Below, in pieces: positions 1-40,214 of a DNA stretch of 49,243 bases. The stretch is taken from the NCBI GenBank assembly GCA_946537255.1, contig CAMNFS010000009.1, forward strand, positions 1-49,243, in the 5' to 3' direction. This DNA comes from an uncultured Erysipelotrichaceae bacterium (lineage in GTDB: Bacteria; Bacillota_I; Bacilli_A; Erysipelotrichales; Erysipelotrichaceae). A program made the translations under genes and the position numbers. The notes under the pieces are model-generated. The model was not told the origin of the DNA. It was given only the letters and a program-made list of their open reading frames with translations, and ran no database searches. How positions within the stretch are numbered: position 1 is the stretch's first letter; the number at the start of each line of letters is the position of its first letter.

Positions 1-54
1 AACCCACGCATGAGGGAGTCAAAGTCCCCTGCCTTACCGCTTGGCTACACCCCA
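1..54 (-). tRNA. tRNA-Gln (anticodon TTG), 3' end cut by window edge
   Basis: Read on the minus strand the stretch starts TGGGGTG, the usual acceptor strand of bacterial tRNA-Gln, continues through a D-arm with AGC..GGTAAGG, and shows a five-pair anticodon stem around the loop CTTTGAC. The central TTG reads the glutamine codon CAA. The variable region and the beginning of the T-arm are present. The rest of the T-arm and the 3' acceptor strand lie outside the window, so 54 of about 72 bases are seen. The stem contains one G-T pair at its outer end, which is normal. Confidence 0.9.
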
Positions 55-26110: not shown

Positions 26111-26138
26111 AAAAAAGCCTGAGAGATCTGCCTCAGGC
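26111..26138 (-). terminator. Rho-independent terminator of the GGDEF gene
   Basis: Minus-strand GCCTGAG and CTCAGGC with an eight-base loop, followed by six T. The stem begins inside the stop codon. Confidence 0.9.
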
Positions 26139-27800
26139 TGTTATGGTCTTCGGATCAAATGTTTTCTTGAACACTTCCTTCTGCACGTACATCCGGGAAT
26201 CCGCCCGGTTGAACACATCCGCGGCAGAGTGATCCACCTCATTTTCAAAGACGGCATATCCATACGCTACCCAGGTCTTCCGCCAGTTCGGAGTAAGACC
26301 GGCATTCTCACTGGATTCGACCTCCTCAAACTTCTTCATCAGCGCGTCCCGGTTCTCGTAATCCACGCCGCGGAGAATGACCGCGAATTCATCTCCGCCA
26401 AGCCGGAATACCGGGCTGTGCTTGAATACATTGCAGATGCGGCGGGAAGCGGTCTGAAGGATCGCGTCCCCGCATTCATGACCGAATTCATCATTCACAA
26501 GCTTCAGGTTATTGAGATCAAACACCACAATTCCATATTCCTGTACATGATTCTTTTCCAGATCCCGGATCATCTCTTCATAGGCAGCGCGGTTTTTCAC
26601 TCCCGTCAGGGCATCCTTGTAGGCAAGCGAGGAAACAAAGGACATATGCTGGCGAAGGACCTGGATCGTGTGATTGAAGGCGTCGGTAAGAACCCCGATT
26701 TCATCCTTGGAACGGACCGGAGGCAGCGGAGCATCAAAATTCCCCGCCTCAATTTCCTTGGCCGCCTCCGTAAGCTCCTGCAGCGGCTGAAGCGCCTGCC
26801 TGCTCAGAAACAGGGAAATGCCGGCAAAAATCAGCGTCGTCGTAAGCACAATCGCGATGATATTGCGGATCAGAACATCCTGTGTCTCATTGATTTCCGA
26901 CGCGTTGGCAGTAAGCCAGAGCTTCATTCCATTGCGCAGAGTTGAGAAAGCCATTTTCTTCGTCACACCCCGGAATGAGTAGGAGAGCAGGATATCACCG
27001 CTTTCCTTCTCCTTCAGAACATCCTTCAGATCATTGTTCTTGAGAGTCATGAAATCCCCGATATTGGAACCGGATGGAAGAATGGGATGGTAGTAAACCT
27101 CTCCTGTTTCCGATGTCAGCGCCGCGTACCCGGTTTTCAGCGTCGTCATGTCCGCGACGGTTTTCATCATGGATGAAAAATCAACGTCCACGCCTACGAT
27201 TCCGATCAGCTTGGTTTCCTTATACATCGGTTTGATATAGGAAATCATATAGAGATCCAGGTTTTCGCTGTAATAGGGATTCAGCCATACCGCCTTTCCG
27301 GCTTCAATCGGCATGTAGTAGGACTGGGCATCGCTGGAGTGCGCCCCGGCATCGTCAGAAAGATCATTGAATTCTCTCTTTTCAAACTTTTCATCCATGT
27401 TCCTGCGGCTGTAAAGAAATCCGTTTTCTTTCTTTGCGAAACCGGGATCATACCGCACATAGTAGGAAAACACTCCGGGAACCATCCCGGCAACGTCTGA
27501 AAAGACATCCGCAATTCCTTCGGTGTACTGTCTGCGGTAGTGCTCATTCCCCGCAATCCGGTCATAGGAAAGCAGCTGATCCATCGCATAAACCGACATC
27601 ATTTCAACTGCCTGCTCCGCGCTCCGCAGATTGCCGTCCATATGATCCGAAACATTCTGACAGTTCAGATTCATGATTGCCACCGCACTCTGATCTGCCG
27701 CCTTCTGTGACACCATAATGCTCATCATCCCGATCAACATACAGCCGCAGACAGTCGACAGAACCACCAGCGCGATCATTTTTGTTCGAAGGGAATTCAT
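26133..27800 (-). CDS. Membrane-bound diguanylate cyclase (Cache-HAMP-GGDEF)
   Basis: A 555-residue signalling protein. A transmembrane helix at about 8-32 and a second at about 310-332 enclose an extracellular dCache-like sensor (with YYVRYDPGF, IGIVGVDVDFSSMMKTVADM and a PILPSGSNIGDF loop). A HAMP domain follows (LTEAAKEIEAGNFDAPLP), then a GGDEF domain with the intact signature GGDEF (about 474-478) preceded by DLNNLKLVNDEFGHECGD. So c-di-GMP synthesis in response to an extracellular ligand is expected. No EAL or PilZ gene is near. The ATG at 27800 has an AAGGG only one base away, so the exact start is unsure. Confidence 0.9.
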   Translation of the reverse strand: MNSLRTKMIALVVLSTVCGCMLIGMMSIMVSQKAADQSAVAIMNLNCQNVSDHMDGNLRSAEQAVEMMSVYAMDQLLSYDRIAGNEHYRRQYTEGIADVFSDVAGMVPGVFSYYVRYDPGFAKKENGFLYSRRNMDEKFEKREFNDLSDDAGAHSSDAQSYYMPIEAGKAVWLNPYYSENLDLYMISYIKPMYKETKLIGIVGVDVDFSSMMKTVADMTTLKTGYAALTSETGEVYYHPILPSGSNIGDFMTLKNNDLKDVLKEKESGDILLSYSFRGVTKKMAFSTLRNGMKLWLTANASEINETQDVLIRNIIAIVLTTTLIFAGISLFLSRQALQPLQELTEAAKEIEAGNFDAPLPPVRSKDEIGVLTDAFNHTIQVLRQHMSFVSSLAYKDALTGVKNRAAYEEMIRDLEKNHVQEYGIVVFDLNNLKLVNDEFGHECGDAILQTASRRICNVFKHSPVFRLGGDEFAVILRGVDYENRDALMKKFEEVESSENAGLTPNWRKTWVAYGYAVFENEVDHSAADVFNRADSRMYVQKEVFKKTFDPKTITA

Positions 27801-31236: not shown

Positions 31237-31821
31237 ATGCAGTATAAAAAAGAATTGAAAGATGAGATTTTCCAGGACTGGCCGGCTCAGTATTACGACC
31301 TCGATCCGGAAACCCGACGCAGCGCCCTTGCCCGCCATATGGCAGATTCGCCAGGCTTTCCCGGTGATGAAAGACGGAAGGAAATCCTGGAGCGGCGGTT
31401 TTCGGGAAAAGGAGATCAGTACTTCTACGCCTGGATGATGCTGAAGGTACTGGCGCAGGAATCGGTCAGTTTTCTGAACCGGAAACGGCATATGGATGAG
31501 ATCCGCAGATACTTCCGTATTTTTGACATGGAACATCCGGATGAGATTCAGATTCAGGAATGGAAGAACTTCGCGGATACCATGATCCGGAATTATTCCG
31601 AGTCCCCTGCCTTCCGGGCGGCAGTATTCGGAATGGGATCTGTCGGAGACCGGAATACCGCCTTCCGCATCGCTTCTGAAATCATAGAGGTCACAGAAAA
31701 AGTTCCCGATCAGGCCGGCATGAAGGAAGCGGTCACTCCCTTTGCCAGCGTCATGAAGGAACAGTTTCTGCGTCTGATACCGGACGCAGAAGAAATACTT
31801 GCAAAGATTCAGTCCAGATAA
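31237..31821 (+). CDS. Uncharacterised helical protein (DUF6553-like)
   Basis: A 194-residue soluble, almost all-helical protein without known catalytic motif. Features include YFYAWMMLKVLAQ, a KKAHM-like RKRHMDEIRRYFRIF segment and a C-terminal EQFLRLIPDAEEILAKI. It resembles a small family of Bacillota proteins that I associate with DUF6553, but I am not certain. The ribosome binding site is weak (GGAACC directly before the ATG), and there is no clear promoter. Its stop codon lies 13 bases inside the coding end of the convergent binding-protein gene. Confidence 0.55.
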   Translation: MQYKKELKDEIFQDWPAQYYDLDPETRRSALARHMADSPGFPGDERRKEILERRFSGKGDQYFYAWMMLKVLAQESVSFLNRKRHMDEIRRYFRIFDMEHPDEIQIQEWKNFADTMIRNYSESPAFRAAVFGMGSVGDRNTAFRIASEIIEVTEKVPDQAGMKEAVTPFASVMKEQFLRLIPDAEEILAKIQSR

Positions 31822-32801
31822 TCCCTGATATTATCCTTTGTCACCTTGCGGTATGGAAGCCGGATGTATTTCTCCCTTTCAGACTTCGAGGTGTTTTTCT
31901 GACTGGCCAGCTCAACCGCCAGAGCAGCCATCGCCTGCGCCTGCCCCTTCTGGTCATTGAATACCGTTCCATACATTTCTCCGTCCGCGACGGCCTTCAG
32001 TCCGTCTGCGGTTCCGTCAATGCCCACGATGACCGGCCAGTCTGCCCGATCTGTACCGGATGCCTTGTAGGCATCAATCGCTCCCAGTGCCATATCATCA
32101 TTGTTGCCCATGATGAGCTCGATCTCACTCTGGTTGGATTCGATCAGAACACTGATGCGGGACTGTGCCTGAGAGCGGCTCCAGTTGGCGGTGATGGAAG
32201 CGATCTTATCAACCTGATAGCCTTTTTCTATCAGCGTATCCACACACTTCTCCGTGCGTACGATCGCGTCCTGATGATTGACTTCTCCTTCCAGGATCAC
32301 ATACTGGATAATCCCGTCCCCGTTTTTATCCAATGACATATCCTGAAATGCCTCCGCCGCGAGTTCTCCCTGCATGACTCCCGACTGCTCCGCGTCAGCG
32401 CCGATATAATACAGTTCCTCCCACTGCATCAGATCCTCTTCCACCAGTTCCCGATTGAAAAAGATTACCGGCACATTATTCTTTTGGGCAAGATCAATGA
32501 TCTTTCTGGGGCTGGTCCGATCCACGAGATTGATACAGATCACATCACAGCCGCCCGTAATCATGGCCTCTGTCTGCTTGTTCTGTGTCTGCTGGGATTT
32601 TGCGGCATTATTGATTTCAAGAGAGATGTTTTCACTGCCGGCCACCGCCGCGTTGAAATCACTCATCAGTTCAGAGATGAAAGTATCGTAGCTGTCATAG
32701 ACGGATACGCCGATCTTAAGACGCTTTTCTTCCGGCACATCCTTTGCCCTGCAGCCCGCAAGTACAACAGCCAGTGCCATGGCCGCGGCCGTTTTTTTCA
32801 T
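31809..32801 (-). CDS. Sugar-binding lipoprotein (MglB/RbsB type)
   Basis: A 330-residue periplasmic-binding-protein type I family member. The signal sequence ends in the lipobox LAGC, so it is exported and lipid-anchored to the outer face of the membrane. The mature part follows the galactose/ribose-binding pattern: KIGVSVYDSYDTFISEL, VICINLVD, GADAEQSGVMQGE, MGNNDDMALGAIDA and VIVGIDGTADGL. No ABC permease or ATPase lies in this block, so it may serve as ligand receptor for the upstream kinase rather than for import (inference). It is last gene of the unit, 12 bases after the sister protein. Confidence 0.88.
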   Translation of the reverse strand: MKKTAAAMALAVVLAGCRAKDVPEEKRLKIGVSVYDSYDTFISELMSDFNAAVAGSENISLEINNAAKSQQTQNKQTEAMITGGCDVICINLVDRTSPRKIIDLAQKNNVPVIFFNRELVEEDLMQWEELYYIGADAEQSGVMQGELAAEAFQDMSLDKNGDGIIQYVILEGEVNHQDAIVRTEKCVDTLIEKGYQVDKIASITANWSRSQAQSRISVLIESNQSEIELIMGNNDDMALGAIDAYKASGTDRADWPVIVGIDGTADGLKAVADGEMYGTVFNDQKGQAQAMAALAVELASQKNTSKSEREKYIRLPYRKVTKDNIRDYLD

Positions 32802-32813
32802 ATCCTTCTCCTC

Positions 32814-33770
32814 CTATCTGATAATCGGAAACAGCATCGTCTCATGCTTGGCACTGTAGAGATTCCCGCGGTCAATCACTTCAAAGGAAACCTCGCGGCT
32901 GACCATCGGAATATTCGGTGCCTGAAGACGGTTGAAGACTTCCATCACTGCCAGATACCCCATCTGAAAATCATCCGGAACAATCATCGCGGAGATGGTT
33001 CCCCGATCAAGATAATAAATGGTCATATCGGAACACCCGATCCCGTACAGCTCCGTATCCTGACTGTTTCTGAGGTCCAGGCAGGCCTGTTCGAGATTCA
33101 TATTATCCAGCGCGACAACGATATCCACTTTCGGGGAAGATTCCGAAAGACTCCCTGAAATATCCGGAATGACCCATACGGGTGTAATGCCATGTTCTTT
33201 CAATGTATTCTCAAAAGCTTCCAGCCGCTTCTGCATCATATCCATGTTCTGATTACCGGACAGAATCCCGATCCGCAGTCCGGATTCTCCCTCGTGATTG
33301 TTCAGAATCACCTCTGCCAGGGAGACGCCGATGGCGTGATCATCCGCAAAGATACCCGCACATGACTGTTCCTCCTGCGCAAAAGTCTCACCGGTTCCGA
33401 TCAGTTCCAGCACGGTTGTGCGGGAGATCTCACTGATCAGATCATCAATGCCGGAGCTGTCTTCCATCTGTACAATCAGTCCGTCTGCGCCCGCGGAAGC
33501 TCTGGTAATCAGATTCATCTCTTCCTTCAGGCTTTCAAAGCGGCTGGTAACCAGATAGTTGAGACTGATATTATAATCATCCGCTGCCTTTTCGATTCCT
33601 GCCTGAAATCTTGCCCAGCGGCTGTTGGTCGAATCACTGACCACCACAGCAACCTGATACCGGTTGACAGGCGGCTCAAGCCCCGATCCGGACACTCTGG
33701 ACCAGATCCAGACCGTAAGCGCAATTCCTGCCAGAATCAGACCATAGGACATCAGATTTTTCCGTTTCAT
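32814..33770 (-). CDS. Membrane-anchored sugar-binding protein
   Basis: A 318-residue type I periplasmic-binding-like protein whose N-terminus (residues 5-25) is an uncleaved-looking membrane segment without lipobox. After it come VAVVVSDSTNSRWARFQAGIEKAADDY, SAGADGLIVQ and GIFADDHAIGVSLAEVIL, and later DIVVALDNM and GIGCSDMTIYYL, so the ligand pocket faces outside. Start overlaps the kinase stop as ATGA, so the three sense-related genes are translationally linked. Likely a sensory partner that presents a sugar to the YesM-like kinase (inference). Confidence 0.85.
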   Translation of the reverse strand: MKRKNLMSYGLILAGIALTVWIWSRVSGSGLEPPVNRYQVAVVVSDSTNSRWARFQAGIEKAADDYNISLNYLVTSRFESLKEEMNLITRASAGADGLIVQMEDSSGIDDLISEISRTTVLELIGTGETFAQEEQSCAGIFADDHAIGVSLAEVILNNHEGESGLRIGILSGNQNMDMMQKRLEAFENTLKEHGITPVWVIPDISGSLSESSPKVDIVVALDNMNLEQACLDLRNSQDTELYGIGCSDMTIYYLDRGTISAMIVPDDFQMGYLAVMEVFNRLQAPNIPMVSREVSFEVIDRGNLYSAKHETMLFPIIR

Positions 33771-35590
33771 GACCTGGTCTCCTTTCCGCCCTCTTCCAGA
33801 AGTCTGCGGGTTTCCTCACTGTAGGGAATTGCAGGAAAACAGATGATGACGATGGTACCTACATCCGGCTCACTTTCAATCCGGAGTCCGTACCGTTCTC
33901 CGAACCAGAGCTGAATCCGTTTGTGTACGTTATACAGTCCAACCCCGCTGCCATGGTGCCTTGCCTTGGACCGGTCCTCCAGCAGCAGATGTTCCACTTC
34001 TTCCTTCGGCATCCCGAAGCCGTTGTCCTCAACGGAAATGTAGATGTCATTTTCATCCTTCCAGTCACGGACAATAATCATTCCATCCTCATCCATGTTT
34101 TTCACACCGTAATAGATCGCGTTTTCAAGAAGCGGCTGAAGGACGAGTTTGACCGTACAGTAGCGGTCCAGCTCCGGATCGGTGTCAAATTTCACCTGGA
34201 AGGCATTGGGGAACCGTACCTGCTGGATATTCATGTAATTTCTCGCGTGTTTCAGTTCATCCTCGATCGGGATGATCGTATTTCCCTTGGAAAGAGAAAT
34301 TCGGAAAATATTCGCCAGCTGGGTAATCATATGCACCGCTTCCTGACTGTGCCCGCTTTCTATCATCCAGACAATGGAATCCAGCGTATTGTACAGAAAG
34401 TGCGGATTGATCTGAGACTGCAGCGCATCCAGTTCCGTCTTCCGTTTTTCCTCCTGCTCGCGGACAATATCCTTCATCAGTTCATTGTTGCGCCGCTGAT
34501 AGTTCTGCAGGGTCTGACCAAGATGCATGATTTCAAGAGATCCCTTTTCAAAGGACTCATTTGTAATCGGATTGGTATCACTCGCCTTGCGGACCGCCTC
34601 ATCCAGTGTCCGGACCGGGCCGGAAATCGAAGACGCGACTCCCCGGTTCACCATGATAATCGCCAGAAACATGACAATCACAACCATGATGACAAACCAG
34701 CGCATCTGACTGACATTGAGGGAAAAGGAAGAGGACGGAATCACCGAAACGAGCTTCCAGCCGGTGTAGGAAACCGTGTCAATAATCACCACCCGGCTTT
34801 CCCCGTTGAACACTTCTTCCGTCACGCCATCATCGTAGTCCCTGACCGCCTGATTGTTTTCATCCAGAATCCCGGCATTGATCTGCATCTGCTTGGGATG
34901 ATAGATAATGGTTCCGTCACTGTCGGTAAGATACATGTACTGTCCGGTCGAATTTCCGGCATTGATATCATCCAGCATCTGAACAATTGTGCTGTAGTTC
35001 ATATCAACCAGAAGCACGCCATTGCGGGGAACGCCGTTGACCGTGATCCGGACCGCTCGGCTCAGGGAAATCACCCAGTAATACCGGTAGTTTGGATCAT
35101 CGAACAGATTCTGCACATGAGGAAGTGAAAAATGAAGATTCTCCACCTCCGCAAACGCCCGGGAGTACCAGCTCTCCTTTGTGACATCAAGCCCCTGCTT
35201 GATCATCGCTCCGGGGGCAGCGGAGACAAGATCACCCGTCAGGCTGAACAGCGCAAGTGAAACAATCCGGCTCTTACCGGATTCATAGAACATGTTCATT
35301 TCCGTATCCACTGTTTCGTCCCTGAAGTCATGTTCCTTGATCACATCATAGTACATGGCATCCGACAGCTGCCGCATATCGGTCAGATAGTCTTCCAGGG
35401 AAACCACGGTCCGCTCCGTGAGCCGCTCCGCGCTTTCCGTCATCATCTGCCGGGATCTGGCCGCGAACTGGGAAAACAGCGCAAAGCCGGTAATCAGAAT
35501 CGCCGCTGCCGCAATCAGGGTAAAGGAAAGCAGAATGGTCGCGTTAATCGAGAGCGGCTGTCCCCCGTCGGTTCTTTTCAGTCTGTTCAT
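33767..35590 (-). CDS. YesM-type sensor histidine kinase
   Basis: A 607-residue kinase. Transmembrane helices at about 17-40 and 293-315 enclose a dCache-like extracellular domain (SLSRAVRITVNGVPRNGVLLVDMNYS). Then HAMP, a His_kinase domain with the phosphorylated His in QINPHFLYNTLDSIVWM, and a HATPase_c domain with N box LVLQPLLENAIYYGV and G boxes DNGFGMP and GSGVGLYN. Such LytS/YesM-family kinases in Bacillota respond to sugars. Its start overlaps the regulator gene by ATGA, and its end overlaps the binding protein gene, which supports a single signalling unit. Confidence 0.93.
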   Translation of the reverse strand: MNRLKRTDGGQPLSINATILLSFTLIAAAAILITGFALFSQFAARSRQMMTESAERLTERTVVSLEDYLTDMRQLSDAMYYDVIKEHDFRDETVDTEMNMFYESGKSRIVSLALFSLTGDLVSAAPGAMIKQGLDVTKESWYSRAFAEVENLHFSLPHVQNLFDDPNYRYYWVISLSRAVRITVNGVPRNGVLLVDMNYSTIVQMLDDINAGNSTGQYMYLTDSDGTIIYHPKQMQINAGILDENNQAVRDYDDGVTEEVFNGESRVVIIDTVSYTGWKLVSVIPSSSFSLNVSQMRWFVIMVVIVMFLAIIMVNRGVASSISGPVRTLDEAVRKASDTNPITNESFEKGSLEIMHLGQTLQNYQRRNNELMKDIVREQEEKRKTELDALQSQINPHFLYNTLDSIVWMIESGHSQEAVHMITQLANIFRISLSKGNTIIPIEDELKHARNYMNIQQVRFPNAFQVKFDTDPELDRYCTVKLVLQPLLENAIYYGVKNMDEDGMIIVRDWKDENDIYISVEDNGFGMPKEEVEHLLLEDRSKARHHGSGVGLYNVHKRIQLWFGERYGLRIESEPDVGTIVIICFPAIPYSEETRRLLEEGGKETRS

Positions 35591-37191
35591 CCTGAGCGCA
35601 TTCCCTGTTTATATTTGGAAGGAGAAACTCCGAACTGTTTTTTGAATACATAGGAAAAGTAATTCGGGTCACTGTAGCCGACCTGGCGGGCAATGATATA
35701 GGTCTTCTCATCCTTTTCCATCAGAATCTCCACGGCCCGCTCCATCCGCACATCGGTCAGAAACGACGTAAAGTTCTTTCCGGTTTCCCGTTTGAATACC
35801 GTTGAGAAATAAGCGGAGCTGATCCCCATCCTGGAACAGATTTCCTCGACATTCAGATTCTCATCCATATAATTTTCATTCACATACTCAATCGCCTTGG
35901 TGACAAAGGACTGGGAAGTATTCAGACGGCGGTCCGCAAGCATCGCCTGCATTGCCAGACATGTCTCTTCCACCCACTGCCTGATTTCTCCCTGATCCAT
36001 GACCTGAACCATGGCGTAGACATCTTCCGTATTGCGGAACACCCGGTCAATATCCAGGCGGTTGTTTTTTGCGAAACGATAAATCTGCGAAACAAGTTCC
36101 ATCACGAAAAACCGGTATTCCTGCACGGAAGAAAGATGTTCCATGGTATCCATACAGCGGTTCACCGATTCCTTCAATTGATCCGCATCCTCCAGCCGCA
36201 CCCGCTTGAATACCTCCTTGAGGGTTTCCTCGCTGTCAGTTTCTCCGTCATCGGTTTCACTCGGAGCGATTTCCGAGATGGAAATTGCCTTGGAAGTACC
36301 GTAGATGACCCGGTAGCTGACCGCGGATCTTGCGCCATTATAGGACGTGGAAATTTCCCGGATATCACGGGTCGGACTGCCGATTCCGATCGTTACGACC
36401 GCTTTGGTCACGGAACAGGCCAGACGGCAGAACTTGTCGCATTCATCGATCACCCGGGTGCTGTCTTCTTCCTTTTCCATCTGTACCAGAATGACCGTAT
36501 TGTTGAGATAGGAAAAATAACGGACATTCCATCCGTTCAGAAGCCGCTCTTCGGCAAGACGCCGTACCGCAACGCCAAGCAGCCTTGCGCTCATTCCCTC
36601 CGGAACATGGGTGGTACTTGTATGAATCAATGCGATCAGAAAAACCGGACCGGTCAGGGAGATCTGTAAGTCTCTCAGAATCGTGCCGGCTTCCTTTTCC
36701 GGAACCCGTCCCTCAATCAAAGAGGCATAAAAACTTTCCTGCATCAGCGGCAGACTTTCATTGTAATAGCTTTCCAGCTTCTGAACGTTCTGCTGTTCAT
36801 CCAGTTCCTTATCCAGTGCCGTCCGGATCCGCGTGAAAATACGCTGCAGTTCCTCGCTGTCCACAGGCTTCAGAATGTATTCCTCCGCGGACAGCCGGAT
36901 CGCTTCCTTCGCATATTCAAATTCATCAAAGCCGGAGAATATGATGATCTTCGTATTCGGCCAGTTCTCCTTGAGTCTTGCGGCAAGCTCAAGCCCGTTC
37001 ATGTATGGCATCTGAATATCCGTCATGACAACATCCGGCTGACTGACCTCCGCAATATCCAGTGCTTCCAGTCCGTTATGCGCGTAGCTTGGCTGGTTGA
37101 ATCCCATGGAATCCCAGTCGATCCTGCGGGAAATCGCCTTCGCGACATCCTCCTCATCATCCACAAGCATCACAGAATACCGTCTATTCAT
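35587..37191 (-). CDS. YesN-type response regulator with AraC DNA-binding domain
   Basis: A 534-residue regulator. The receiver domain (1-120) has the acidic pair DDEED, phospho-acceptor Asp in DVVMTDIQMPYMNG and Lys in ILKPVD. A long helical middle (about 130-420) is a degenerate GGDEF-like region without motif. The C-terminal AraC helix-turn-helix pair is complete, with YMDENLNVEEICSRMGISS and IIARQVGYSDPNYFSYVFKK. The ATG at 37191 lies eight bases inside the end of the preceding small gene; a longer frame has no ribosome site. Probable targets include genes for sugar use not visible here. Confidence 0.93.
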   Translation of the reverse strand: MNRRYSVMLVDDEEDVAKAISRRIDWDSMGFNQPSYAHNGLEALDIAEVSQPDVVMTDIQMPYMNGLELAARLKENWPNTKIIIFSGFDEFEYAKEAIRLSAEEYILKPVDSEELQRIFTRIRTALDKELDEQQNVQKLESYYNESLPLMQESFYASLIEGRVPEKEAGTILRDLQISLTGPVFLIALIHTSTTHVPEGMSARLLGVAVRRLAEERLLNGWNVRYFSYLNNTVILVQMEKEEDSTRVIDECDKFCRLACSVTKAVVTIGIGSPTRDIREISTSYNGARSAVSYRVIYGTSKAISISEIAPSETDDGETDSEETLKEVFKRVRLEDADQLKESVNRCMDTMEHLSSVQEYRFFVMELVSQIYRFAKNNRLDIDRVFRNTEDVYAMVQVMDQGEIRQWVEETCLAMQAMLADRRLNTSQSFVTKAIEYVNENYMDENLNVEEICSRMGISSAYFSTVFKRETGKNFTSFLTDVRMERAVEILMEKDEKTYIIARQVGYSDPNYFSYVFKKQFGVSPSKYKQGMRSG

Positions 37192-37507
37192 ATTTTTCCA
37201 CCATCTTTTTCCAGGAGAGGAAGGTCCATACCGTGACAAGAATGATCTCTGCCAGAGCGACATAGATATTCACCCAGAGAAGAAACGCGTTCAGAACAAC
37301 CCCGATCGAAAAGACCAGAATGATCTTTCCGGCTGCCATCGCGTATTCATCGTGAATCTTCCTGCGGACCGGCGGCTTGTTTTTCCCGCGTACGCATTCG
37401 AGATCCTTCATCACCAGAAGCCTCCAGGCATAGTAGAATCCAATGGCAGAAAGCATGAGGGGAATGCCTGAGGTTGCCATAAATGAATCCAGTGTAAGGT
37501 TCATCAT
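37184..37507 (-). CDS. Small two- or three-pass membrane protein
   Basis: A 107-residue protein with hydrophobic stretches at about 10-32 (IPLMLSAIGFYYAWRLLVM) and at 58-95 (GKIILVFSIGVVLNAFLLWVNIYVALAEIILVTVWTFL, in two helices), joined by a basic loop KNKPPVRRKIHDEY. No known family. The ATG overlaps the stop of the glycosyltransferase as ATGA and has GGGAG just before; an ATG six codons earlier has no site. The gene overlaps the response regulator by eight bases. Being locked between the glycosyltransferase and the sensory genes, it may link envelope synthesis and sensing (speculative). Confidence 0.7.
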   Translation of the reverse strand: MMNLTLDSFMATSGIPLMLSAIGFYYAWRLLVMKDLECVRGKNKPPVRRKIHDEYAMAAGKIILVFSIGVVLNAFLLWVNIYVALAEIILVTVWTFLSWKKMVEKYE

Positions 37508-38676
37508 TCTCTCCCTTCCACGCATGCAGCGTACAGATTCTGATACTGCTGCAGCGTCTTTATCTGATCAAAACACGTCTCCGCCCGACGGCGGCAGTCC
37601 TGGCTGCGGAAGGAACGGTTCTTCTTTTCCCTTGCCAGTACAGTCCGCAGCGCACTGAGATCATGTTTTTCAATCACTATTCCGGTTTTATCATCCACGA
37701 TTTCCGGACTTCCCCCGCTGCGGTAGGTAATTACCGGGGTTCCGCAGGCAAGCGCCTCCATGTTTACGGTCGGAAAGGTGTCCTCCAGGGTCAGATTGAC
37801 CAGAAAATCCGCCCTGCTGTAGTATTCCGCCAGTTCCTTTCGATCTCCTGTCCGTTTCAGCACTTTCACATTCGCGTATTTTTCAAACTGACCGGATCCG
37901 TTTCCGATAACCGTTACGGAAATCGAAGGATCCATCTCAGCGAGCAGCGCGTGCATATCCTCGCTTCCTTTTTCCTTTGTCCAGCTTCCGCTGACAAACA
38001 GAACAGAGAAGCCATCCTGCTTTTCTGCGCAGGGATGAAAAACAGAAAGATCGATTCCGTTATGAATCGTCTTCACCGGCTTTTCCTTCAGAAAGGATTC
38101 CAGAACCCTCTCCCGCAGCCAGTCAGACGGCGTGACAAGGGTCAGCCGCTTTACGGAAGTGAAGCACTCCCGTTTCTTCAGAAACTGTTCCCTGACATTC
38201 TGACGGAACAGTGAAAACGGATAGGCAAACGGATACGGACATGTCTCACATATGGTTCGATACTGCGTGCATCCGCAGCCTTCAAAATGCGGACAGTAAC
38301 CGGTAAAGGACCAGCAGTCATGAAGGGTCCAGACAACCGGAATACCGGCGTCCTTCAGCCAGTCAAACAGTTCTTCGTAATTGACATAATACCCATGCAG
38401 GTTATGCAGATGAATCAGATCCGGGGCGAACTGCTCGATCCTTCGAATCAGCTTTCCCGTTTCTTTCCGGTTGGACAGACCGTTCCGGTTGAACAGAATC
38501 GTATTCAGGGCCGCAATGGCGTTGCCGGAAAACTCCGTAAAGCGAAAGGAGGGAACATCTCCCCGATAGGTTCCCCTGCCATAGCAGATCAATGACTCCT
38601 GCATACGGGCAAGGTCTTCCGTCATCCGGCCGGTAGAACCATTTCCCGCAACAGAATTGACATACAGGACTTTCAT
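37504..38676 (-). CDS. GT4-type glycosyltransferase
   Basis: A 390-residue GT-B glycosyltransferase, family GT4/WcaC-like. It has MKVLYVNSVAGNGSTGRM at the start, DLIHLHNLHGYYVNY and VWTLHDCWSFTGYC in the first domain, TLVTPSDWLRE and TIHNGIDLSVFHP in the second, and the nucleotide-binding end VNMEALACGTPVITYRSGGSPEIV with the catalytic-like EX7E pattern. A Cys-rich loop FEGCGCTQYRTICETCPYP in the middle is also typical of WcaC-like enzymes. It adds a sugar to a lipid- or polysaccharide acceptor, probably at the cell surface. The ATG at 38676 starts the GT fold directly; the longer frame shows no homology. First gene of the leftward block. Confidence 0.85.
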   Translation of the reverse strand: MKVLYVNSVAGNGSTGRMTEDLARMQESLICYGRGTYRGDVPSFRFTEFSGNAIAALNTILFNRNGLSNRKETGKLIRRIEQFAPDLIHLHNLHGYYVNYEELFDWLKDAGIPVVWTLHDCWSFTGYCPHFEGCGCTQYRTICETCPYPFAYPFSLFRQNVREQFLKKRECFTSVKRLTLVTPSDWLRERVLESFLKEKPVKTIHNGIDLSVFHPCAEKQDGFSVLFVSGSWTKEKGSEDMHALLAEMDPSISVTVIGNGSGQFEKYANVKVLKRTGDRKELAEYYSRADFLVNLTLEDTFPTVNMEALACGTPVITYRSGGSPEIVDDKTGIVIEKHDLSALRTVLAREKKNRSFRSQDCRRRAETCFDQIKTLQQYQNLYAACVEGRE

Positions 38677-38700
38677 ATCGTCTTTTATTTTCTCACGAAT

Positions 38701-38743
38701 CCGGAGAATTCTGTATCCCCGCCGCATGGGATACCGGAGAATT
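38701..38743 (-). promoter_or_regulatory. Direct repeats flanking a dyad upstream of the glycosyltransferase operon
   Basis: CCGGAGAATT occurs twice, at 38701-38710 and 38734-38743, 33 bases apart. Between them TATCCC and GGGATA form an inverted repeat over eight bases. A minus-strand GATACAGAAT sequence overlaps the first copy and may hold the -10. It is the plausible control region of the glycosyltransferase-sensor block. Confidence 0.35.
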
Positions 38744-38865
38744 TTACCTGTTTTCTGTAAGAACCCATGCCGGTTATCGGAAGTTCCTTGCTTTCCAGGG
38801 GTCCCTGTCCCTGTGATTCCTTTCAGAAAGCACAGGATTTCCGCGTTTCCTTTTCCGCAAGGCGG

Positions 38866-38871
38866 TATAAT
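38866..38871 (+). promoter_or_regulatory. Candidate -10 box of the aspartate kinase gene
   Basis: TATAAT 20 bases before the ATG. No clear -35 at 17 bases. I saw no lysine riboswitch or T-box in front of it. Confidence 0.4.
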
Positions 38872-38891
38872 TCTTGTCGGAGCGTAATGCC

Positions 38892-40214
38892 ATGAAAACA
38901 ACTGTCGCAAAATTCGGCGGAACCTCGCTTTCTGACGCAGAGCAGTTCCGTAAGGTAAAAGCCATTATTCTCAGCGATCCTTCCCGCAGAATCATTGTCG
39001 CCTCTGCCCCTGGCAAACGGAGTGATGAAGACCGCAAGGTCACGGATCTTCTTCTGGACACATGGGACTGTTTTGAGAAGGGAAAAGACTGGCAGATCCC
39101 CCTGAACAGAGTACAGACCAGATTTGAGGAAATCTGCCGGGGTCTCGATATGAATCCGGATCTTTCCGAAGAATTTGAAGAGATCAGGGAACGGCTGAAT
39201 ACCAAACCGGAAAAAGACTATCTGATCAGCCGTGGCGAATATCTCAACTCCCGCATCCTTGCCGGATTTCTTGGCTTCACCTTTGTTGATCCGGAATGGT
39301 GTGTCTTCTTTGACGAAAACGGACAGCTGAACACGGATCTTTCCCAGCGAATGATGAAAGCCGCTCTGCTGCCGCTTGAAAACGCGGTCATCGCCGGCTT
39401 CTACGGTTCAGACGCATCCGGAAGAATTCACACCCTGACGCGCGGCGGTTCCGACGTCACCGGCAGTCTTGCGGCAGCGGCGGTCAACGCGGACCTGTAT
39501 GAAAACTGGACAGATGTTTCCGGGCTTCTGGCAGCTGATCCAAGAATTGTGGATCATCCGAAAACCGTCCGCTATGTCACATACCGGGAACTTCGTACAC
39601 TTTCCTACATGGGCGCGTCGGTTCTGCATACCGATGCCGTCCTGCCCGTATCGGATCTCGATATTCCCATCAATATCCGCAATACGGATCTTCCGGAAGA
39701 AGAAGGAACGACCATCATCCGTTCTCTTCCTGACGGCGAGATCAAATATCCGATCATCGGTCTGGCCGGGAAGAAAGGAATGTCCGTGATTCAGATCGAA
39801 AAGCTGATGGCAAGTGATGGCGCGGGGTTTACCGCGGTAGTACTGGATATCCTCAAAAGCATGCGGCTTCCGTTTGAACACTGTCTGACCGGAATTGACA
39901 CCGTGACGCTGGTCATCCGCAGTGACCTTCTGAATCCATGCCGGCAAGAGCTTCTGAATCATATCCGGGAGGAACTTTCTCCGGATTATCTCGGGGTCAG
40001 TGATCATCTTTCCATGATCGCGGTCATCGGAGAAAAAGGATCCAACTCCTCCTACGCAAATATCCGGGCGCTGAACTCTCTGACCGATGCCGGAATTCCC
40101 GTCAGTACCATCAATCAGGGGGCCGGAAAGCTGAATCTTCTGATCGGTGTTCCGGAAGAAAAATACGAGGACGCGATCCGCTGTATCTACAGAACGATAG
40201 AAATTGTCAGGTAA
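38892..40214 (+). CDS. Aspartate kinase
   Basis: A 440-residue aspartate kinase, the entry step to lysine, methionine, threonine and diaminopimelate. The opening AKFGGTSLSDAEQFRKV is the amino-acid-kinase signature, with LTRGGSDVTGS for the substrate, ENWTDVSGLLAADPRIV for the nucleotide and TYRELRTLSYMGASVLHTDAVLP. The last 150 residues form two ACT domains (GMSVIQIEKLMASD..., and GSNSSYANIRALNSL..). These are the sites for feedback by amino acids. The ATG at 38892 has GGAG nine bases ahead. It is monocistronic, ending at a terminator shared with the PTS operon. Confidence 0.93.
   Translation: MKTTVAKFGGTSLSDAEQFRKVKAIILSDPSRRIIVASAPGKRSDEDRKVTDLLLDTWDCFEKGKDWQIPLNRVQTRFEEICRGLDMNPDLSEEFEEIRERLNTKPEKDYLISRGEYLNSRILAGFLGFTFVDPEWCVFFDENGQLNTDLSQRMMKAALLPLENAVIAGFYGSDASGRIHTLTRGGSDVTGSLAAAAVNADLYENWTDVSGLLAADPRIVDHPKTVRYVTYRELRTLSYMGASVLHTDAVLPVSDLDIPINIRNTDLPEEEGTTIIRSLPDGEIKYPIIGLAGKKGMSVIQIEKLMASDGAGFTAVVLDILKSMRLPFEHCLTGIDTVTLVIRSDLLNPCRQELLNHIREELSPDYLGVSDHLSMIAVIGEKGSNSSYANIRALNSLTDAGIPVSTINQGAGKLNLLIGVPEEKYEDAIRCIYRTIEIVR

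Follow-up and report, generated by a model that had tools for sequence, protein, structure and literature searches.

Organization of the genes at the locus

The stretch of DNA analyzed here, hereafter called the window, consists of 49,243 nucleotides of contig CAMNFS010000009.1 in the genome of an uncultured Erysipelotrichaceae bacterium (GCA_946537255.1). On its minus strand, it carries a coupled operon in which the genes of a response regulator, a sensor kinase with a dCache ectodomain, a membrane-anchored substrate-binding protein (SBP1) and a lipoprotein of the same superfamily (SBP2) follow each other in this order. These four genes probably encode a sugar sensor having two binding proteins, only one of which appears to have kept its sugar pocket. 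The features of the coupled run are as follows (ORF, open reading frame; HTH, helix-turn-helix; TM, transmembrane helix; the basis of each assignment is given in brackets):

37504..38910, minus strand: glycosyltransferase, GT4-like, first gene of the coupled run (ORF, Pfam, junction)
37184..37507 (longest frame from 37525), minus strand: ORF113, small membrane protein coupled upstream of the regulator (ORF, junction; no Pfam or NCBIfam family)
35587..37191, minus strand: YesN-type response regulator, REC and AraC HTH (Pfam; start placed from the junction with ORF113)
33767..35590, minus strand: YesM-type sensor kinase of 607 amino acids, with TM, dCache ectodomain, TM, His_kinase and HATPase (Pfam, AlphaFold2, Foldseek)
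32814..33770, minus strand: SBP1, membrane-anchored GanP/XylFII-like binding protein, sugar pocket apparently lost, with Gly245 in place of Asp and Pro in place of Gln (Pfam; sequence and fold comparison)
31809..32801, minus strand: SBP2, MglB-like lipoprotein with an apparently intact glucose/galactose pocket, proposed sugar receptor (Pfam, NCBIfam, MglB structures, alignment)

A preliminary description of this DNA had linked the kinase, the regulator and the membrane-anchored binding protein on the basis of start-stop overlaps, with a lipoprotein homologue following, and the junctions bear this out. The regulator and kinase genes share an ATGA overlap of 4 nt (35587-35590), a second ATGA overlap joins the kinase gene to that of SBP1 (33767-33770), and SBP2 follows after a gap of 12 nt containing a ribosome-binding site. 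The reading frame of the regulator is open from 37263, but its start was assigned at 37191, within the 3' end of ORF113; this gene, absent from the preliminary description, itself overlaps the stop of the glycosyltransferase gene. With these two genes counted, the coupled unit comprises at least six genes, although the glycosyltransferase lies outside the conserved module in most of the relatives.

In the Pfam analysis, the regulator was found to consist of a REC domain and an AraC-type HTH, and the kinase of dCache_1 (residues 52-283), His_kinase and HATPase domains. The kinase ectodomain was modeled with AlphaFold2 with a mean predicted local distance difference test (pLDDT) score of 89.4, and its matches in Foldseek are ligand-binding domains of the dCache type, most of them from chemoreceptors; LuxQ is absent from the 50 matches listed. 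Both binding proteins carry a Peripla_BP_4 domain (E 4.5e-21 in SBP1 and 1.5e-47 in SBP2), and since they gave no significant match with each other in BLASTP, they are not close copies. SBP1 has an N-terminal membrane helix (residues 3-28 of the predicted model) and no lipobox, while SBP2 has the lipobox LAGC.

Conservation of the module

Named genomes were scanned with two kinase peptide patterns, which yielded 79 loci, a set biased toward kinases having those motifs. The order kinase-SBP1-SBP2 is intact in 58 of these loci fetched by the kinase, and the four-gene order, which spans the Erysipelotrichaceae, Lachnospiraceae, Butyricicoccaceae, and Clostridiaceae, recurs more than by chance. 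The comparison sets used below were defined by gene order: the two-SBP set contains 59 modules (the 58 loci and the window), and the one-SBP set contains 11 of the 79 loci, or 12 when L042 is added. Among the loci left outside the 58, SBP2 is split into two frames in L083 and L099, truncated in L048 and located on another contig in L075; L055, L074, L110, and L126 end too early to be judged, and L071 and L088 have no SBP2. The first of these last two, from Oribacterium sp. WCC10 (L071:11921-13502), has kept mglBAC, the regulator, the kinase and a pocket-less SBP1, and SBP2 has been lost from its genome. The kinase is rare in the family to which the window belongs, where it was detected in only 4 of 145 genomes at E <= 1e-80.

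The N-terminus of SBP1 is a membrane helix in all 59 two-SBP modules, in several families. A lipobox pattern was found in 44 of the 59 SBP2 sequences, and the remaining ones look membrane-anchored or ambiguous. The ORF113 family consists of membrane proteins of about 100 amino acids, without any Pfam or NCBIfam match, whose genes immediately precede that of the regulator in 24 of the 56 two-SBP modules tested. It is limited to the Solobacterium/Butyrivibrio/Oribacterium side (L049, L051, L052, L056, L061, L065, L069, L125, and others), and these proteins are possibly a further part of the sensor.

The neighboring genes do not fix the identity of the sugar. Glycosidases were considered as a possible clue, but the three genes upstream of the module in L057 turned out to encode two hybrid kinases and a GGDEF protein, and the only glycosidase among the neighbors scanned is a GH9 in L060. 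One protein beside the L057 module (L057:2497-5868) is a hybrid kinase of 1123 amino acids with HisKA, HATPase, receiver and DegV domains and a weak Hpt, where the presence of DegV looks unusual. In the window, a DUF6553 gene (31237-31821, plus strand) is convergent with SBP2, the two 3' ends overlapping by 13 nt; genes of the DUF6553 type also close the module in several relatives. A diguanylate cyclase with a dCache-HAMP-GGDEF architecture is encoded a few genes away (26133-27800, minus strand), and a tRNA gene (1-54, minus strand) is truncated by the end of the contig, where the window begins.

Sugar-binding residues of SBP2 and SBP1

SBP2 aligns end to end with solved MglB structures (8fxu, E 9.4e-72), and the pocket residues were also recognized in these alignments. 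The contact positions were numbered according to what we take to be the ligand contacts of the Escherichia coli glucose/galactose-binding protein. Seven of the ten positions are invariant across the 59 SBP2 sequences aligned: the equivalents of D14, N91, H152, D154, R158, N211, and D236. Those of F16 and W183 are kept in 58 of the 59, and that of N256 in 40, with Cys in 12. The ligand-contact residues expected of an MglB are thus found in SBP2, which appears to retain a glucose/galactose pocket, whereas the score obtained with the MglB model NF011924 (E 1.5e-67, 228 bits) is below the 420-bit cut-off, so that SBP2 does not qualify as an MglB equivalog. It resembles the MglB of MglBAC systems in its end-to-end alignment and its pocket, but differs from it in grouping with the sensors and in fixed differences such as Asp94-Arg95 and His176-Gln177.

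In three Butyrivibrio loci (L052:12856-15759, L053:5514-8372, and L054:12921-15779), SBP2 is extended at its C-terminus by about 600 amino acids, including a DUF3298/PdaC-like part. These proteins were at one point taken to be triple-domain SBP2s, but this was rejected: the high profile scores stemmed from the DUF3298-containing extension.

The nearest solved structures of SBP1, in terms of both sequence and fold, include the sensor-type proteins GanP (glucose-galactose binding), XylFII, and AraP; GanP and AraP belong to the GanPST and AraPST systems of Geobacillus stearothermophilus. GanP (6gt9, 6gq0) was the best match both by fold and in the search with the single sequence, and the top sequence match in the family-profile search was 3brs, a binding protein of Clostridium phytofermentans. 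The SBP1 fold is intact (pLDDT 92.6), but its sugar contacts differ from those of the one-SBP systems. At the position equivalent to D215 of the ribose-binding protein (RBP; the numbers are those we take to apply to this protein), Gly is present in 59/59 two-SBP modules versus Asp in 12/12 one-SBP modules; Asp is also present in GanP and XylFII, and 7 other loci from the same clade of kinases, which were outside the count, have Gly. The context of this position (GFD versus LYGxG) leaves little doubt about the alignment. Gln at the Q235 equivalent is kept in 2/59 two-SBP modules, Asp at the D89 equivalent in 17/59 and Arg at the R141 equivalent in 38/59, versus 12/12 one-SBP modules in each case. 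The title of 5xsd refers to a crystallized D103A mutant of XylFII, and D103 would correspond to the D89 position if the chain carries a four-residue tag. SBP1 therefore appears to have no sugar pocket, and with its pocket Asp replaced by Gly in all 59 modules, it probably does not bind the inducing sugar as expected of a XylFII/GanP-like protein.

The two binding proteins also diverge at different rates. The mean pairwise identity over the 34 loci having all the genes was 0.60 for the kinase core, 0.51 for the kinase ectodomain, 0.50 for SBP2, 0.48 for the regulator, 0.31 for SBP1 and 0.66 for the transporter MglB: SBP1 is the fastest-diverging protein of the module, while SBP2 and the ectodomain are held alike.

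The mgl transporter and its operator-like repeat

The genome of the window's organism (G000; 2.44 Mb in 129 contigs, estimated to be 100% complete) contains a complete mglB-mglA-mglC set on another contig (C69, 11.5 kb). The suggestion that the system has no transporter is thus ruled out at the genome level, although it is correct for the immediate neighborhood, where no permease or ATPase gene adjoins the four genes. The MglB of C69 shows 34% identity with SBP2, and a search of the whole genome with SBP2 at E <= 1e-20 matched only SBP2 itself and this MglB. The binding protein encoded with MglA and MglC is the product of this separate mglB gene.

In a tree of 98 SBP2 and MglB-type proteins, the 42 transporter MglBs are united in a single group with full support. 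The MglB of C69 falls inside this group, beside the MglBs encoded directly upstream of the module in L049 and L051, whereas the SBP2 of the window groups with the sensors, apart from the transporter proteins. The sensors include the Butyricicoccus proteins L084_11, L105_6, L108_21, and L109_11; the protein taken from L042 is the transporter MglB of that locus, and L122 is a one-SBP locus with an unrelated second binding protein. The only exception to this split is L111, which has a very long branch; the sensors as one clade are not supported by this tree. That SBP2 is a stray copy of the transporter MglB is ruled out by the 34% identity and by the separate clade. The preliminary description had considered that ABC transporter genes depending on the two binding proteins, together with a lack of binding to the kinase, would speak against a sensory role. 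Transporter genes are indeed present, but they come with an MglB of their own from a clade other than that of SBP2, and the sensory reading is therefore not refuted.

The mgl transporter with its third binding protein is the usual neighbor of the intact modules: in 45 of the 59, genes resembling mglA/mglC are encoded on the same strand at a distance of no more than about 9.5 kb (upstream in 27, downstream in 16, and on both sides in 2). Some of the other 14 modules are at contig ends, and in L104 and L111 the mgl genes are on the opposite strand. Adjoining mglA in L107 is a gene (L107:3415-5601) for a 728-amino-acid protein with two tandem binding-protein domains. Since the order mglB-mglA-mglC-ORF113-regulator-kinase-SBP1-SBP2 was found in the Solobacterium relatives L049 and L051, the module of the window and the mgl operon are suggested to have formerly been neighbors.

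Upstream of mglB, both on C69 and in the relatives, we found a direct repeat of about ten bases with a 21-bp spacing, followed by a TATAAT-like sequence, as would be expected of the target of an AraC-type activator. When up to 3 mismatches were allowed, the 2.44-Mb genome gave a single site, just upstream of mglB, and none with the reversed-pattern control; no site was found in the window, including the region upstream of its operon. As the pattern was written after the C69 promoter had been viewed, finding it there does not amount to an independent prediction, whereas its uniqueness in the genome does. In 27 related genomes, 28 sites were detected, 24 of which are just upstream of mglB (one per genome, in 24 genomes) and 4 elsewhere. 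Eight genomes had an mglB upstream region that was unseen when the pattern was written (L048, L050, L053, L055, L056, L057, L060, and L117), and seven of them have the site; judging from the contig positions, the mglB site of L056, one of the 14 modules mentioned above, appears to lie further upstream on the contig of the kinase. In the sample of 145 genomes of the window's family, MglB was detected in 37 at E <= 1e-60, and 35 of these have no kinase. None of the 35 has the repeat at up to 2 mismatches, and the sites found in the sample belong to the window's own genome and to G024 and G091, where their positions are known from the pattern match only. The repeat thus tracks the module and not mglB as such.

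Proposed mechanism and alternatives

The following mechanism is proposed on the basis of the gene coupling, the conservation of the four genes, the retained SBP2 pocket, the lost SBP1 pocket, the separate MglB and the repeat unique to mglB. SBP2, a lipoprotein with an MglB-type pocket, would bind D-galactose and/or D-glucose. SBP1, a pocket-less anchored adaptor of the GanP/XylFII type, would sit on the dCache ectodomain of the kinase, read the open or closed state of SBP2 and pass it on to the kinase, which would phosphorylate the AraC-type regulator. The latter would bind to the 21-bp-spaced direct repeat and activate the unlinked mglBAC genes of C69 in trans, the MglB of which would feed the Mgl permease. 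We assign a probability of about 0.58 to this reading, in which the sensor has two binding proteins, SBP2 as the receptor and SBP1 as the adaptor, and activates mglBAC in trans. The idea that the two binding proteins form a pair, which was put forward in the preliminary description, is supported here; a division of labor is more likely than the other idea, that each has its own ligand, since SBP1 has lost its sugar-pocket residues.

Several observations weigh against this reading. The L071 genome encodes a pocket-less SBP1 and an MglB but no SBP2, and in L088 both SBP2 and MglB are missing; since SBP1 has been kept in both, it may be able to function in certain lineages when SBP2 is absent. 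With 12 members, the one-SBP group used for comparison is small, and its divergence is lower (mean identity 0.41 versus 0.28), so that some of its invariance is to be expected, but not the fixed Asp-to-Gly change; the invariant Gly could itself mean a new function instead of a plain loss. The congener L069/G102 has the module and mglB but a diverged repeat with 6 mismatches, and the repeat was not found in the genomes of L055 and L078. Lastly, the predicted contacts, ligands and regulation are based on single chains and sequence comparisons.

The invariant Gly at the former Asp (59/59), as if newly constrained, together with the confidently modeled, intact fold of SBP1, would also fit a sensor with two inputs, in which a rebuilt cleft of SBP1 accommodates another ligand, probably not a hexose, galactose or glucose is bound by SBP2, and the kinase integrates both. 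This explanation seems unlikely: the Q235 equivalent varies (Pro, Ser, Thr, Trp, Ile, and others), unlike what would be expected of a conserved new pocket, the D89 equivalent varies as well (Gly, Asp, Glu, Val, Asn), and no protein of the module is less conserved than SBP1. Its rapid divergence (0.31), in contrast to SBP2 and the ectodomain, which are held, would be in line with SBP1 being the decaying remainder of an ancestral sensor of the GanP type, in which case SBP2 alone would dock on the dCache domain, in the manner of LuxP and LuxQ; the ectodomain is of the class on which LuxP acts, according to PMC8534201. We regard this as rather improbable, because the membrane-helix N-terminus of SBP1 is present in all 59 two-SBP modules in several families, and L071 has kept SBP1 and lost SBP2, which is the opposite of what decay predicts. 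Very improbable, in our opinion, is that SBP2 serves the Mgl permease as an additional binding protein, with SBP1 as the sole sensor as in the usual one-SBP systems: SBP2 is MglB-like, as its NF011924 match below the cut-off indicates, but the transporter comes with an MglB that belongs to another clade, SBP2 is encoded 12 nt from SBP1 in the coupled operon, and SBP1 is without sugar-pocket residues.

Returning to the receptor-adaptor mechanism, we tentatively propose, with less confidence than for the window itself, that a kinase reading its ligand via two stacked binding proteins, with SBP1 as a fixed "pseudo-SBP" adaptor that does not bind ligand, may be widespread in gut Firmicutes. If this is true, a binding protein has turned from a receptor into an adaptor, and the kinase can swap sugar receptors without its ectodomain being rebuilt. 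The module would then offer a circuit with which the sensing of extracellular galactose/glucose can be tested in bacteria of the rumen and gut (Solobacterium, Butyrivibrio, Oribacterium, and Lacrimispora), and many genes annotated as ABC transporter binding proteins may encode signaling proteins.

Comparison with known systems

With GanP, AraP, and XylFII as the nearest relatives of SBP1, the earlier view that binding proteins are coupled here to a YesM/YesN pair in a sensing system of the three-component type is strengthened. An SBP gene is coupled to those of the kinase and regulator, and the transporter has its own, different SBP. A sensing SBP distinct from the transport SBP is established in XylFII-LytS-YesN (Clostridium beijerinckii, D-xylose) and CuaDSR (Ruminiclostridium cellulolyticum, cellobiose): according to PMC10384115, both have a dedicated sensing SBP, a YesM/LytS-type kinase and an AraC-type regulator, and the ABC transporter is served by a different SBP. 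The window differs from these systems in having two SBPs in the sensing unit, and SBP1, which matches XylFII in sequence and fold, has lost both the pocket Asp and the Gln that XylFII keeps. The sugar class proposed here agrees with that of GanP (glucose-galactose binding according to the titles of 6gt9 and 6gq0), but GanP keeps its pocket residues, whereas in the window the sugar pocket sits in a second, MglB-like protein. In our literature searches, in which subscription papers were mostly not covered, no kinase was found to be described as having two separate sensing SBPs, with one of them pocket-less.

Two other systems, both described in PMC8534201, each share one feature with the module. 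In LuxP-LuxQ of Vibrio harveyi, a periplasmic binding protein acts on a kinase ectodomain of the double-PDC (dCache) type, and the window's kinase has an ectodomain of this type, but there is one binding protein in the former case and two in the latter. BvgS, a kinase with tandem Venus-flytrap domains, has two flytraps with unequal roles in one sensor, as proposed here; they are fused into the kinase in BvgS, whereas they are separate proteins in the window. The two-SBP module is a variant of the known sensors combining SBPs with two-component systems.

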